Source of the DNA: Verrucomicrobiota bacterium
Lineage (GTDB): Bacteria; Verrucomicrobiota; Verrucomicrobiia; Limisphaerales; SIBE01
Reading direction: 5' to 3'
DNA length: 59,272 bases
Assembly: GCA_016871535.1 (NCBI GenBank)
Contig: VHCZ01000008.1
Coordinates: forward strand, 1-59,272
Shown: one piece after another, positions 8,270 through 59,272 of the stretch
Layout of the letters: every line of letters starts with the position of its first letter
How positions within the stretch are numbered: the stretch's first letter is position 1
Program-made: the position numbers and the translations under genes
The notes under the pieces: generated by a model
What the model was told of the DNA's origin: nothing
Databases searched by the model: none
The model's input: only the letters and a program-made list of their open reading frames with translations

Positions 8270-9142
8270 TCATGATTTCGTCGTGGCGAATCCCTTCTGT
8301 TTTGCCCGTGCCAATGCGGCCTTTCGACCTGCCTCTGAGATCTGGCCACTGGCAAGATTGTTTCCGCCGCGGATGATTTTTTCGCCGGCGATGTCCACGA
8401 GCTTCACCGTTTTGGTTTCGCCGGGCTCGAATCGGACGGCCGTGCCGGCAGGGATATCGAGGCGTTTGCCGTAGGCTTTGGCGCGATCGAACTCCAGAAA
8501 GGCGTTCGTCTCAATGAAATGGTAATGGCTGCCGACCTGAATGGGACGATCGCCAAGATTTGTCACGGGCAACTCGACCGTCGCGCGGCCGGCGTTGAGT
8601 TCGATTTCCCCTTCGAGTGGAGCGCAAGCGCCGGGGACGGCGAATACTTCCTCCCTACGAACCCACCCACTCCCAGCCCCTCCCAGGAGGGGAGCCACGA
8701 TTGTCGCGCCTGCTTCAGCTTCCCCTCCTGGGAGGGGTGACGGGGTGGGTTCGTTAAGCGGAAGTTCGTCCTTGAATCTGGACATATCCGGCACAGGCAG
8801 AAAACTGCCGTGCAGGGCCAGCGCTAGATTGCCATGTTCGCTTGCGATGGGGTGATGCACGGTGACGAGTTTGGTGCCGTCCGGGAACGTGCCTTCCACC
8901 TGCACCTCGTGAATCATTTCCGGCACACCGGACATAACCTGGTTGCGGCCAAGCAACTGCCGGCCCAGGTTCATGAGTTCGGCGACGCGTTTGCCTTCGC
9001 GGATGAATTCGAGCAAGACGGCGGCGATCAGCGCAACGGCTTCCGGATGGTTCAGGCGCAGACCGCGGGCGAGGCGTTTCTGTGCGAGAAAACCGGCGTT
9101 GTGCAACATCAACTTTTCGATTTCGCGGGGGGATAAGTGCAT
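8270..9142 (-). CDS. ureAB: urease gamma-beta fusion subunit (UreA-UreB)
   Basis: A 290-residue fusion. Residues 1-~100 are the gamma subunit ([31 protein letters not shown]). The rest is the beta subunit ([37 protein letters not shown], and [20 protein letters not shown]). Gamma-beta fusions are known in several bacteria. Unusual is the linker: after KDELPLN comes a proline/glycine-rich stretch of about 33 residues ([16 protein letters not shown]... to GSGWVRR), which is the translation of palindromic element F (8658-8753). The frame is maintained through it. The subunit would assemble with UreC into the (alpha, beta-gamma) trimer. Confidence 0.95.
8658..8753. repeat. palindromic element, family F copy inside ureAB
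   Basis: CGAACCCACCCACTCCCAGC ... GACGGGGTGGGTTCG, with internal hairpins CCCCTCC-CAG-GAGGGG and CCCCTCC-TGG-GAGGGG. It lies exactly in the gamma-beta linker and is read in-frame. Other copies: 15273-15362 and 59108-59197, the latter also in-frame inside a gene. Confidence 0.9.
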
Positions 9143-19128: not shown

Positions 19129-22100
19129 CTACCGCAGGATCACGACGCGGTAGAAGCGCGTCGGACGCTGATCGAATCGCGCGGGATCTGTAACCACCAC
19201 TTCCCGCGGTCCATCGCTGATGGACACGTTCTCCAAAAGCGTCCACGCCGGCGGCGCGATCCCATCTGAATATTCCACGCGATAGCTCCTCCCAGGTTGA
19301 GCCGCGAAGCGGATGCCGGCTGCTCCTCCGCTGAACGCCGCCGCATCAACTCGGAAACGGCTGAAAGCATCGCGTGGATTGGTGCCGCTCAGGAACTCCG
19401 AGAAATTGCTCATGCCGTCCTGATCCGCGTCGGCTGTCGCATCTGCCGCCGACGTGGGGTCGAAGCCGTTGAGGGCTTCCCAGACGTTGTCCATGCCGTC
19501 CCGGTCCGCATCGCCGGGCAGAATGCGGTTCGGCGCGGCGGGCGTCGGCGAACCGGGAAAGCGCACGGTCTGCGAAGCGCCGTCGGGATATCGCCCCTCA
19601 GAGACGCCATCCAATTGAACGACGAAATCGATGCTGTCGATGATTTGCGCGCTCGGATTGAGCAGGCGGATCGTCTCGCCAAAACGGTCGAGTTGAAAGG
19701 CGGTGTAAGCCGGACCACGATTTCGCGTGCCGTCGGTACTGAAGCGCACGAAGGCCTTCGCATCGATGAACGTGAGTGAAGGCAGCCGGTTGTTGGTCGC
19801 GCCTCGCAGCGATGGATCATCCGTCAGCACCCAGCGTTCGAGGCTGACGGGCAAGGCGGCGGGATTGTACACCTCGACGAAGTCATTGGTTCCGCCGCCG
19901 CCGGCCAGCCATTCATTCAGCCGCAATTCGTTTCCCGAATCGAGCGCCGCCGGCTGCGCGTTGGCCTGACCGGGCGTAGGCGCGGAGAGCAAAACCCATT
20001 GCTGGCTCACGCGCCCCACGGAGCGATCGGCGACTTGCAGGCCGTACTCAATGCGATCGACGACGCGGTCAAGTGAGTCGCGGATGCTCAGCACGGCGCC
20101 GTCGTCGTTGAGCGGCGCGGGGAAGGAATGCGCATTGGGCGGCACAGTGAAGCGGGCGGGCGCGGGTCCGAAATAAACTATCATTCGTTCACCGGCTCGC
20201 ATCTGTGCTTCGGGGCGCAGCGCCCATCGAACAAGGGGTCCCGCCGGGGACTCGGCGCCAAGCGAGAATCCAGCCAGAGCCATCGATCCTCCGGAAACAT
20301 TCTCGAGCTCCACCCAATCCGGTCCGGTCGAGGAACGGGCGAGGAATTCAGAAATGCGCAGCCGTGTTCCCAATTCCGCCAGATAATTGCTCGCGCCGCG
20401 CGTGGCGCTGAATTGGAGCGGCTGAAACGTTCCCGTGCCATCGGGCAGCCGGCCAAAGGTAATGCCAGTCGCCTGCGCGCCATACGTGACCCGATCCAAC
20501 TCCTGGCCGTTCGGAGCGAGCAAGGCGATCAGGCCGGCGGATGCAGGCAACTTCAGCTCCAAATGATCCGGTCCGGAGTTTTCATCGGCGCGAAACACCG
20601 CAAAGCCGCCCGCCCCGATGAACACCGGCGAAGCGATGCGGGCCAACGCATTGCTGGTGACAATCGCGCAGCCTTGCAGCGCGACCGGGAGCGAACTCGA
20701 ATTATGAAGTTCGATCCAGTCGTCCCCGCCGTCCGGGTTCGCCAGGAATTCGTTGATCTTCAGTCCGCTCAAACCGCCGAGCGCCACCGGTTCGTTGGGG
20801 CCCGCGGGCGTCGGTTCACACAAGGTCAAACGACCATTCACGATGCCGGCGGTGTAGCCATCGGGCACGGCGCCGTACCAGACGACATCGACGCGATTCG
20901 TTGCGCCGTCAAAGAGCGCGACCGTCTCGCCGTCGCGGTTCAAACCGAACGAAGCTTTAAGAGGACCGCCTGAAGCGCCCTGGTTGCAGTCGATCCGCAG
21001 ATAGTCGCCTGCGGCGATAGAGGCGCCTGCCGGGAACACGTATTGCCGCGGATCGGAGTTATCGGTGAGCGACCAGCCGCCGATTTGCACGGCCGTGGCT
21101 CCGGGATTGTGCAGTTCGAGCCAATCGCGGTCGGTGCCCGGCTGAAGTTCGTTGATCTGGATCCGCGGCGGCGCGGCCAGCGCATTCGCGTCGCCCGGCG
21201 AACCGCCTGGAGCACTGGCTTTCCAATTGGACGGATCATCCGGTTCGCGTTGCGCATCGACCACTTCAATCGAAGCGCCAGTGCCATCCGCGACCACCGG
21301 CCAGGGATGCGCGTCGCGAAACTCCACCGCCGTGATAGTCCGGCCCGAAAGGTCGCGCAGCACGATGCGCTCGCCTCCGTTGTCCAGGGAACCGGAGAAC
21401 CAGCCCGCGACGCTCAGGCCCGGATAGCGGCGTTGAAAGTCCGCAGGCCGGGCGTCGTTGGCGAGAACCAGTCTCCCGCCCGGCTTCAGTTCGGGGAACG
21501 GCGTGGGAAACCTAAATCCGATTCCGCCAAAACTGCACCCGCTCAAATCGACCGCCAGGCCGCCCGTATTCTCCAGTTCGAGATATTCGTAGGCGTCGCC
21601 GCCCGGGGGATTGTACATGACTTCGGTGATCCGAACCGGATTGCCGGGCTGGGTGCTTTCGAACTCGAGATCGAGGACCGCGCTCCAGTTCGTGCCGGCC
21701 AGTGAGCGCGCCAGCAGATGGAGCGGGCCGGTTACGGTGATCGGCGCGCGGTATTCCATGGCCGCGTCGCTGGCCACGCTCGTGAAGGGCATACGCGGAT
21801 CAATGCCGTTCGTCGTGTAGAGGATCGCTCCATCGAGATTCTTGAGTGCAAGTTGATAGCCGGCCGGAACGCGTCCGCCAAATTGACTCGCGACCGGCGC
21901 ATTGGATGAAGCGAGGAATCCGGCCTTGATGAACATGTTGGTCAGATATCGCCTTCGGCCCGTGATCCAGGTCCCGATCACATCGCTGAAGCCGGAGATC
22001 GAGTTGGTCACCTGAGCTTTCATTCCATTGTAGTGGGCGCGAATCCTGGCGTCCGTCAGTGGTCCGTCATTGTAGAAGGCGCGATGGATCCGATCCGCAA

Positions 22101-54088: not shown

Positions 54089-55270
54089 ATGAGCGCAGTC
54101 GCCCGCCAAACGCCGAGATCACGCCCCCGAGATTTGTTCGTCCTCGTGTCGTTTCTGTCGGTCGGGTCCGTTCTTGCAGGAGACATTCCCCGGGATCGCT
54201 CGCTTCAAGTGATATCGGGTCGGACGATGGGGACGACTTTCACGGTCAAATTCTTGACCAGTCTTCCTGCGGCTTCGGAGTCATCCAGGAGGAGAATTCT
54301 CCAAAAACCTTCGCACATTGAACCGCTGAACGGCCCCCTCTCCCGTTCCCTCTCCCCCTCCGAGGGGGAGAGGGTGTCCGTAGGACGGGGCGCGTTTGTG
54401 AAAGAGGTCGAGTCGGAGATCAATCGATTGCTCGAGAAGATCAACCGGCAGATGTCCACTTATTTGCCCGATTCGGAGCTTTCCCAATTCAATGCGTGCG
54501 GGCACACGAATTGGTTTCCGGTGTCTCGAGAAGTCGTGGAAGTCTTCGAGAACGCGCTGGCGCTCAGTGAGGCTTCCCAGGGCGCGTTCGACATCACGGT
54601 GGGACCGCTGGTGAACCTTTGGGGATTCGGACCCGAGAAAAGGGCCTGGCAAGTTCCGGAGGCCGACCGCATCGCGCAACTCCTGCGGCACGTGGGCTAC
54701 AACAAGGTTTTCGCGCAGACGCGCCCTCCCCGCATCCGCAAAACCGCGCCGGAGGTGTATTGCGACCTATCGGCCATTGCCAAAGGGCATGGTGTGGATC
54801 GCGTGGCGCAATATCTGGAAGCCATCCGCGTTCAGGATTATTTGGTGCAAATTGGCGGGGAGGTGCGCGCCAAAGGGAAGAATCCGGAAGGACAGACTTG
54901 GAACGTCGGCATCCAGGACCCGAGGGACGCCAGCCGAATTTGCCGCCGCGTGCAGCTTCAAAATCAAGCGCTCTCCACGTCCGGGGACTACGTGCAGTCT
55001 TTCGAGCAGAACGGCCGGAAGTATTCGCACACGATCGATCCGCGAACCGGGCGTCCGGTCACCCATGCGCTCGCCTCGGTCAGCGTCGTCCATGATTCCT
55101 CCGCGATGGCGGATGCGTGGGCCACGGCTTTGAACGTTCTGGGTTCGGAGGCGGGATTCGCGCTGGCCGCGAAAAAAGGACTGCCCGTTTTGATGGTCCT
55201 TCGGACTCCAGATGGCTATGTGGAAAAAATGACGCCGGATTTTTTAGAACTGATCGCTGAAGCGCCATGA
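54089..55270 (+). CDS. apbE: FAD:protein FMN transferase (ApbE)
   Basis: 393 residues with an N-terminal hydrophobic segment (about residues 16-30). The ApbE core starts GRTMGTTFTVKF (~44) and includes INRQMSTYLPDSELSQFN, DITVGPLVNLWGF, CDLSAIAKGHGVDRVAQYLE, YLVQIGGEVRAKG, STSGDYVQSFEQNGRKYSHT and IDPRTGRPVTHAL, then SSAMADAWATALNVLG. It attaches FMN covalently to threonine in S(G)AT motifs of target proteins; the next gene has such a motif. Between the first strand and KEVESEINRLLE is a low-complexity stretch (~66-101) containing a partial G element (RSLSPSEGERVSVG), in-frame. Its TGA overlaps the ATG of the following frame (ATGA). Confidence 0.95.
   Translation: MSAVARQTPRSRPRDLFVLVSFLSVGSVLAGDIPRDRSLQVISGRTMGTTFTVKFLTSLPAASESSRRRILQKPSHIEPLNGPLSRSLSPSEGERVSVGRGAFVKEVESEINRLLEKINRQMSTYLPDSELSQFNACGHTNWFPVSREVVEVFENALALSEASQGAFDITVGPLVNLWGFGPEKRAWQVPEADRIAQLLRHVGYNKVFAQTRPPRIRKTAPEVYCDLSAIAKGHGVDRVAQYLEAIRVQDYLVQIGGEVRAKGKNPEGQTWNVGIQDPRDASRICRRVQLQNQALSTSGDYVQSFEQNGRKYSHTIDPRTGRPVTHALASVSVVHDSSAMADAWATALNVLGSEAGFALAAKKGLPVLMVLRTPDGYVEKMTPDFLELIAEAP
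54332..54377. repeat. partial family G element inside apbE
   Basis: GGCCCCCTCTCCCGTTCCCT followed by CCCTCTCCCCCTC-CGA-GGGGGAGAGGG, a strong hairpin with TCC-type loop, in-frame within apbE. Confidence 0.75.
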
Positions 55271-55866
55271 ACCCGTTGAACTTTCCCGCTCCAGAGCTTC
55301 CCATGAACCGGACGGTAGGGCGAGCCTGTCCCCAGCGAGCCGGTCCAGACGTATTCCAAGCACGTGGAGCGGCTCGCCGGGACGGACTCGCCCTACCATC
55401 GACGCGTTCGTGGGCCGTAGGCACGGCTCGCAGGCCGTGGAAGCTCCCCATCAACCGTCTCTTCGGACCGTGGCCTTTGAGCCGCTGCATCCGCGAACTC
55501 CGGAGCGGGGCCGGAAGCAGCCTCAAGGCTGCGGTCCGCACGGTCTTCAGTTCATGGCCCGTGAACAACAGGAGACTCCCCATGAACCACTGGGTAGGGC
55601 GAGCCTGTCCCCAGCGAGCCGGTCCAGACGTATTCCAAGCACGTGGAGCGGCTCGCCGGGACGGACTCGCCCTACCATCGACGCGTTCATGGGCCGTAGG
55701 CACGGCTCGCAGGCCGTGGAAGCTTCTCCTGAACTCGGTAGGGACGGATTCCACTCCGTCCCTGACTCTACTCTGCATTCGAAAGTGCAGCTTGAGGGAC
55801 GCGGCGGAACGCGTCCTTACCAGTTCCTGCACCGTGTGCGCAGTTCGGAAGCCGTGCGAGCTCGGG
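55271..55866. repeat. repeat island between apbE and the FMN-binding gene
   Basis: Six palindromic units in 600 bp: A (55314-55397), L (55408-55450), H (55464-55538, 75 bp), A again (55593-55676), L (55687-55728) and C (55737-55821). The two A-L pairs are nearly identical over more than 100 bp, so part of the island is a tandem duplication with H in between. The frame starting at the ATGA of apbE remains open through the whole island into the FMN-binding gene. Confidence 0.92.
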
Positions 55867-57376: not shown

Positions 57377-59272
57377 GTGAGATTAGACCATTTCCTACCC
57401 ACACTGACCCGGATCAAAGGCCGTCCGCCTCGGCTCGCCAAATGGCCGTCGCGTCTGGCGCAAAAGCTCTTGCCGGCTGAATGGCTTTCACACTGGGAAT
57501 CCCGCAAAGCCGGCGCGATCCGCCGCGCATTGAAGCGTCTCGGACCGACCTGGCTTTCTTCGCCCGTGCGGCGCGTGATCCAGGGCGTCTGCTTCGTTTT
57601 GTTTCTCTGGTTCTTCTTTTACTCCTGCTGGCCGTATCGCGTGCAGCCCGCGCCGGTCTGGAAGGCGTGGATTCCCGTTGAGATCGATGCCGATACCGGC
57701 GACTGCCGCGTCACGGCGAAGGATGAACTGCCGGGCGTGATTCGCGAAGGCGATCTTCTCCACATCTCGGATGAAAGTCCCAGCGGCCACGCGACGGCCT
57801 ATCTTGGCCCCTTTGTGGTTCGCCGCGCCGAGAACAAGGAATTGCACCTGCATCCTGAAAAAGCGATGACGCCCGAAGCGCTGGAAAAAATGTCCGTGAG
57901 CACCGGCCCGTGGATGCTCTCGGTCCGTCCACCGAACGAATGGCCCTCACACTACGCGGATGAATTCGCGCGTCGCGACGAAATCCCGGTCGAAGCGTTT
58001 CTCTTGATCGATCCGCTCGTGAGCCTATCCACGGCGGTGGCCGCCAAGGCCTGGATGGGATCGCTCTGGGGCGCGGCGATCATCCTGGCGGTCTGTGTGT
58101 TCATCCCGCGCGGATTTTGCGGATACGTCTGTCCGCTCGGCACGTTGATCGATTTGTTCGACTGGGCTGTGGTCGGACGCGTGAAGCGCTGGTGGTTCTT
58201 CGCTGTTTCCCGCGGCAACCGTCGTGAAGGTTCCGACATCTGGTTCTTCGGCATTCCCTCTCCCTGGAGGGAGAGGAATAGGGTGAGGGTGAAAGCGCTG
58301 GACAAATCGGCGACCTTGGAAAGTACCGGCGCGTCTCCCTCACCCCAACCCTCTCCCGCTGGGAGAGGGAGAACGGCCACTGAAAGCAGCAAACCGCGGC
58401 TCCGCGTGCCGGAGGATGGCTGGTGGGTTCATCTGAAGTACTATTTGTTGTTCGGCGTGATGCTGGCGGCTTTTAGCGGGGTCTTGTTGTCCGGGATCGT
58501 CTCGGCGATTCCGGTGCTGACACGGGGTTTGCTCTTTCTCCTCGCGCCGCTACAACTGGGATTCATGCGCGGCTGGCATCAGGTGCCGCCGATGAACCTC
58601 GGCCAGATCGTGTCGATCGTCTTGTTCCTGGCCGTGCTCGGCCTGGGCTTTTTTCGCCCGCGATTCTGGTGCAAATACGTTTGTCCCAGCGGCGCGGTCT
58701 TCTCCCTGGGAAATCTTTTTCGCGTGAGCGAGCGCAAGGTGGAAAACACGTGCATTCACTGCAACAAGTGCGTCGAGATTTGCCCGTTCGACGCCATCAA
58801 ACCGGACTTCACCACGCGCGTCACCGATTGCACGCTGTGCCAGACCTGCGGCGGGGTCTGTCCGACGCACGCAATCAAATTTGTGGAGCGCAGCAATCGC
58901 GTGGCGTTGAAATTGGAAAACGATCCGCCCACAGGTGAGCGCTCGCTGGAAGCCGACTTGCATTGGCTCTTTTCGCGTGAACGCGGTAGGGCGAGCCTGT
59001 CCCCAGCGAGCCGAGCCGGACGTGTTCCAAGCGCGTGGCGCGGCTCGCCAGGACGGACTCACCCTCCCAGGCTCATGGACGGCTTCGAGACCGCGGGAGA
59101 TCTCGACGAACCCACCCCTTCGCCCCTCCCAGGAGGGGAATTTGAAGCTCGCGCGCGCAATACGGCTCCCCTCCCGGGAAGGGCTGGGGGCGGGTTCGTG
59201 AGTGCGTCCATTGGCCGTCGGAGTTTTGTGTCCAGCGGAATCGGCTTGCTGGCGGCGTTCGTCGGCGGTCTC
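57377..59272 (+). CDS. NapH/NosR-like membrane polyferredoxin with three in-frame repeats (3' end outside window)
   Basis: At least 632 residues from GTG 57377; the frame is open to the window end. Helix ~75-90 (GVCFVLFLWFFFYSCWPY), an extracytoplasmic region (~95-215), and helices around GCIVILA-like AAIILAVCVFIP. The cysteine pair CGYVCPLGTLIDLFDW (~249-264) and its twin WCKYVCPSGAVFSLGN (~431-446) are the NapH/NosR motif, and two 4Fe-4S clusters follow (CIHCNKCVEICPF and CTLCQTCGGVCP, ~459-497). Extra segments match repeats: G (58254-58371), A (58985-59068) and F (59108-59197). Then comes a twin-arginine-like GRRSFVSSGIGLLAAF. It fits the role of a membrane electron conduit to the flavinylated protein. 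Confidence 0.85.
   Translation, partial: MRLDHFLPTLTRIKGRPPRLAKWPSRLAQKLLPAEWLSHWESRKAGAIRRALKRLGPTWLSSPVRRVIQGVCFVLFLWFFFYSCWPYRVQPAPVWKAWIPVEIDADTGDCRVTAKDELPGVIREGDLLHISDESPSGHATAYLGPFVVRRAENKELHLHPEKAMTPEALEKMSVSTGPWMLSVRPPNEWPSHYADEFARRDEIPVEAFLLIDPLVSLSTAVAAKAWMGSLWGAAIILAVCVFIPRGFCGYVCPLGTLIDLFDWAVVGRVKRWWFFAVSRGNRREGSDIWFFGIPSPWRERNRVRVKALDKSATLESTGASPSPQPSPAGRGRTATESSKPRLRVPEDGWWVHLKYYLLFGVMLAAFSGVLLSGIVSAIPVLTRGLLFLLAPLQLGFMRGWHQVPPMNLGQIVSIVLFLAVLGLGFFRPRFWCKYVCPSGAVFSLGNLFRVSERKVENTCIHCNKCVEICPFDAIKPDFTTRVTDCTLCQTCGGVCPTHAIKFVERSNRVALKLENDPPTGERSLEADLHWLFSRERGRASLSPASRAGRVPSAWRGSPGRTHPPRLMDGFETAGDLDEPTPSPLPGGEFEARARNTAPLPGRAGGGFVSASIGRRSFVSSGIGLLAAFVGGL
58254..58371. repeat. palindromic element, family G inside the polyferredoxin gene
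   Basis: TTCCCTCTCCCTGGAGGGAG ... CCTCTCCCGCTGGGAGAGGGAG, with hairpins CCCTCTCCC-GCT-GGGAGAGGG and TCCCTCTCCC-TGG-AGGGAGAGGA. In-frame, between the first CPLG motif and a membrane helix. Confidence 0.88.
58985..59068. repeat. palindromic element, family A inside the polyferredoxin gene
   Basis: 84 bp (last foot slightly diverged, CCCTCCC). Read GRASLSPASRAGRVPSAW..., the same frame as in the GH5-like gene. It lies after the 4Fe-4S domain. Confidence 0.92.
59108..59197. repeat. palindromic element, family F inside the polyferredoxin gene
   Basis: GAACCCACCCCTTCGCCCCT ... GCTGGGGGCGGGTTC, 90 bp. Read [16 protein letters not shown]..., the same frame and nearly the same peptide as in the ureAB linker. 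Confidence 0.92.

Follow-up and report, generated by a model that had tools for sequence, protein, structure and literature searches.

Palindromic repeats inside bacterial genes

Palindromic repeats placed within protein genes were reportedly described by Ogata in 2000 and 2002 as Rickettsia palindromic elements (RPE). These elements are short, hairpin-forming dispersed repeats, found in intergenic regions as well as in frame inside conserved genes, and several families can coexist in one genome (PMC2229807, PMC10969869). The enterobacterial RU and ERIC repeats and the neisserial MITEs, likewise small and mobile, have open frames that are joined in frame to ORFs (PMC2229807). Closer in taxonomy to the genome studied here, the verrucomicrobium Opitutus terrae carries GTAG/CGTC REPs that form inverted dimers, most of them lying between genes and the smaller part within ORFs; its uvrA genes have two repeat inserts each (PMC3733652). 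In-gene translated repeats are already known in this phylum, and the gene presented below is a new, well-defined example of them. A literature search for such repeats in Pedosphaera, or for repeats of this kind as an ISL3 MITE, retrieved nothing relevant.

We studied a 59,272-base contig of an uncultured verrucomicrobial lineage (C8; the whole of it is called the window) in which three repeat families, named A, F and G, lie within one polyferredoxin gene. Our main reading, to which we assign a probability of about 85%, is that non-autonomous palindromic elements were inserted into a working NapH-NapG gene, where they would be translated within the protein and tolerated. Like RPE, these are hairpin repeats of several families located between genes and in frame inside them; they differ in that the host belongs to another phylum and has a larger, GC-rich genome, and in that three families share one gene, one of them as a full MITE. 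The likeness drawn here concerns the phenomenon, and the same holds for RU, ERIC and the neisserial MITEs, whose hosts also differ. With the Opitutus repeats they share the phylum, the inverted dimers and a uvrA gene with two inserts, but their size is different (about 85-210 nt, versus 20-40 nt in REPs). None of the three families has the GTAG REP unit, i.e., a terminal GTAG on a self-folding sequence of 20-40 nt: A starts with GGTAG, yet shuffled sequences fold as well as its 30-nt half does (z 0.13), whereas the halves of G and F fold and have no terminal GTAG. No copy of A, G or F was found near the tyrosine transposase loci that were examined, a minority of the 13 Y1_Tnp matches. We also considered G and A as the two halves of one REPIN; this was rejected because G by itself provides the two inverted halves at 58255-58372, and A is another family, located elsewhere in the gene. 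This lineage joins a short list of bacteria with apparently translated palindromic mobile elements, and the window gene stands out by its three families and by a precisely defined empty site (see below).

The host gene

The assembly that contains the contig consists of 460 contigs and 6.67 Mb. The host gene (57377..59272, positive strand) was delimited by its open frame, Pfam and NCBIfam matches and comparison with orthologues: it comprises a NapH-like half plus the beginning of a NapG-like half, and lies downstream of genes for ApbE and FMN_bind. Its frame runs from a GTG at 57377 to the contig end at 59272 with neither stop codon nor frameshift in 632 codons, and the N-terminus, MRLDHFLPTLT, corresponds to a start common to related Verrucomicrobia. 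A full-length orthologue, L011, presented a NapH match followed by a NapG match, both significant and below the curated cut-offs. Judged from this order of a NapH-like membrane Fe-S domain and a NapG-like half, the latter seen only in L011, the host gene represents the first part of a polyferredoxin fusion of NapH-NapG type. The contig end truncates it, leaving GRRSFVSSGIG as the first residues of the NapG-like part; the missing half bears further Fe-S cysteines in the orthologues and, with the C-terminal half of L011 as the query, was not found in any contig of the assembly. The original prediction held that the cysteine motifs of the gene are intact, and those present (C248, C252, C432, C436, C459-C469 and C485-C495) were indeed invariant in the orthologue alignments.

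A predicted structure of the host protein was poor overall (mean pLDDT 58), with the lowest values at residues 280-350 and in the linker between the NapH and NapG halves; the element insert scored about 30-42 and was devoid of secondary structure. These low-confidence regions at the inserts weakly suggest loops.

Element G and its empty site

Element G was a MITE of 202 nt at full length (58194..58395, positive strand). It was recognized by its hairpin fold, by copies in a sister genome (G001) that match past the core, and by imperfect terminal inverted repeats that delimit the 202 nt. Only the core, 58255-58372, had been noticed originally, so the extent of G had to be corrected. The terminal repeats start with GGTTCTTCGC; in the window copy, the right end has degenerated. 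In the host protein G is located in a loop preceding a predicted helix. The G001 orthologue joins precisely at window positions 58190 and 58401, which gives a net insertion of 210 nt (70 codons). All 40 orthologues compared have a fixed 10 residues at this site, against 80 in the window gene; comparison with orthologues for empty sites had been proposed together with the original prediction, and for G it showed the site to be empty. Like the Rickettsia elements, G was inserted in frame into a conserved gene, and the orthologues have no such insert.

The element is flanked by a probable 8-bp target duplication, the octamers of which are degraded: the left copy, GCGCTGGT (58186..58193, positive strand), matches the empty site, GCGCTTCC, in 5 of 8 bases, and the right copy, GCGGCTCC (58396..58403, positive strand), in 6 of 8. 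At other G copies the octamers matched in 3-5 of 8 bases. Since the 202 nt of G and the apparent 8-bp duplication add up to 210, the net insertion is fully accounted for by one MITE. Full-length G copies measured 202, 208, 208, 202 and 256 nt, all multiples of three once the 8-bp duplication is added.

In locus L240 of the same genome, an ISL3-family element (588-2386, PF01610) lies in the centre of another full-length G-type MITE. It has ends GGTTCTTCAC.., an 8-bp duplication, CCCCAAGG, and a transposase that is apparently split by a frameshift. The G end, GGTTCTTCGCTG.., resembles that ISL3 end, so G has ISL3-like terminal inverted repeats; in comparison with ISL3-type bacterial MITEs, the ends of G are similar and the duplications at its copies are degraded. 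The type of end and the duplication in L240 suggest that an ISL3-type transposase mobilised G. A search for an autonomous element with ends exactly matching those of G found none.

Elements A and F in the NapH/NapG linker

Element A (58971..59082, positive strand; core 58984-59068) has degenerate ends, was defined by the dispersed-repeat and frame analyses and encodes GRASLSPASRAGRVPSAWRGSPGRTHPP. Element F (59106..59200, positive strand), identified by its hairpin fold and in the copy survey, encodes a 29-residue peptide. Predicted peptides of the elements include SATLESTGASPSPQPSPAGR and ASLSPASR. About 40 nt separate A from F, and both fall within the single linker that joins the NapH and NapG halves, between TGE and GRRSF. 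Of the separate places assigned to G, A and F by the original prediction, that of G stands, whereas A and F share the linker, giving two sites; three independent insertion sites were accordingly rejected.

In most orthologues the linker is only about three residues long; it was expanded in the family of the source genome and at two further loci (L027 and L033). No exact empty site for A or F was found in the nearest relatives, and the linker itself is absent in most orthologues. The linker of the G001 gene contained a stretch of about 30 nt that recurs some 20 times elsewhere in that genome, and that of G003 a 32-nt stretch with about 10 other copies; for a repeat in the linker of G002 the evidence was weak. 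The repeats in G001 and G003 are unlike A and F, which indicates that this linker has received different repeats in different lineages. No offset stood out as a target duplication for A. Among 30 relatives we found 0-2 weak matches to A per genome, so that A is almost confined to the source genome and its expansion looks lineage-specific.

We propose that the three elements were inserted at two positions tolerant of extra residues, i.e., the loop before the predicted helix and the NapH/NapG linker, and that G, A and F would be transcribed and translated as segments of the protein, apparently as floppy extra loops. Few stop codons within the elements and suitable net lengths would explain why the frame was kept, together with selection, which would have eliminated insertions that disrupted the gene.

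Distribution of the families in the genome

Repeat surveys covered 2.0-2.5 Mb of the 6.7-Mb genome. In a 2.03-Mb sample we counted about 132 copies of A, 92 of G and 26 of F; all three are dispersed palindromic repeats present both between and inside genes. Compared with shuffled sequences, the hairpin fold was strong for G (z -6.0) and F (z -3.7) and weaker for A (z -2.2). The 2.03-Mb sample contained 199 element clusters, 19 of which (about 10%) were in genes, defined as having same-strand coding on both sides, versus about 44% of random segments; coding was called, approximately, with a hexamer model whose frame agreed with the ORF frame at 81% of positions, shadow ORFs included. Most in-gene clusters (14/19) were in frame and open (p = 0.0004 against one third), and in a larger sample the same was true of 16 of 21 in-gene cases. 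A match in C54 that had been taken as an in-frame case looked like a shadow ORF, was absent from the second survey and was discarded. The rarity of clusters in genes and the excess of in-frame copies fit the loss of disruptive insertions.

The same numbers bear on the idea that the elements are skipped, by RNA excision, translational bypass or protein processing, so that the mature protein would have none of them. Strong hairpins would suit such a mechanism, but skipping would make the frame and stops inside the elements irrelevant, and yet most of the copies within genes keep the frame and contain no stop; moreover, Rfam, self-splicing introns included, gave no match in the region. We regard skipping as extremely improbable.

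It is also conceivable, but unlikely, that the families have evolved tolerance to genes, with net lengths divisible by three and one frame, free of stops, for a disordered hydrophilic peptide, so that in-gene copies survive. There are three hints of this. One is the set of G lengths given above. The second is the spacers between the ends and the core of A, which on both sides measured mostly 1, 4 or 7 nt in the sampled G000 contigs, so that end-to-end lengths of A differ by threes. The third is that all the in-gene A copies (n=4) use a single one of the four stop-free frames of A, encoding a Ser/Pro/Gly/Arg-rich hydrophilic peptide. These hints rest on few independent events, for which founder effects could be an explanation. 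Indels in the A core presented no such constraint, as 11 of 44 lengths other than 84 were divisible by three, the proportion that chance would give.

Selection on the host gene

Three distinct palindromic families in frame in one polyferredoxin gene, with the frame open and the families dispersed genome-wide, were confirmed by this analysis. The original prediction had gone on to argue that independent insertions all preserving the frame are improbable unless out-of-frame ones are removed by selection. This argument was overstated, given that the elements have few stops, that G adds a net 210 nt and that A and F lie in a tolerant linker. The elements being easily read through, little can be concluded from their in-frame state by itself, and the data from orthologues and dN/dS carry the claim.

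The alternative is a decaying pseudogene in which the elements are in frame by chance owing to their few stop codons. All six frames of F lack stops, as do four of those of A and three of those of the G core, and the downstream half missing from the assembly could hide a stop in its frame. dN to outgroups was also slightly raised, about 1.1-1.2 times that of a relative without G, A and F, although a ratio of this size makes the host gene unlike a pseudogene. Against decay, dN/dS relative to the nearest orthologue was 0.17 over the whole gene and 0.08 in the stretch between the two insertion sites, which shows purifying selection; these values average the whole branch and would let a very recent loss of function escape. 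The cysteines are invariant, the 632 codons are uninterrupted, and the element copies have diverged, which argues that they are not very recent. A pseudogene is thus quite unlikely. In agreement with the original prediction, the host gene is probably functional, as judged from dN/dS, the cysteines, dN to outgroups and the genome-wide depletion of clusters in genes.

Inserts in other genes

The window contained a second host of element F, a fused urease gamma-beta gene (8273-9142, negative strand), with the element at 8660..8752 (negative strand; residues 131-161), in frame between the domains. The neighbouring apbE, an operon-mate of the polyferredoxin gene, presented an in-frame insert with a G-type half element (54264..54404, positive strand), a net gain of 111 nt relative to L011. 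Outside the window, a nuoL gene (L157:3289-5634, negative strand) had an in-frame insert of about 70-80 residues of G-type repeats; the flanks of this insert align to adjacent residues in a solved homologue, where the junction is continuous. A uvrA-like gene, recognized as such by sequence (G000:C38, around 20043-20131), presented two repeat-like in-frame inserts. Genome-wide, the hosts (nuoL, urease, uvrA and others) are functionally unrelated.

This variety of hosts is relevant to whether the elements have been co-opted to the benefit of the protein or its mRNA, for instance as flexible linkers or as hairpins with a regulatory role. Consistent with such a role, the in-gene A copies share one frame and hence one type of hydrophilic peptide, and repeats recur in the same linker of related lineages. 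The linker repeats differ between those lineages, however, the G site is empty in every orthologue compared, the host genes have no function in common and the insert is predicted to be disordered, all of which makes co-option very unlikely. According to the reading that we prefer, of translated elements tolerated in a working gene, the Ser/Pro/Gly/Arg-rich peptides, predicted to be disordered, most likely have no function and would be tolerated selfish DNA. With its many in-gene copies, in nuoL, urease and uvrA among others, this genome is a place to test selfish DNA as a seed of protein segments versus mere tolerance.

The FMN_bind ORF contains, at its 5' end (55297-55734), a pair of almost identical 159-nt units, both of which include a copy of A; these units are likely upstream of the true FMN_bind start.
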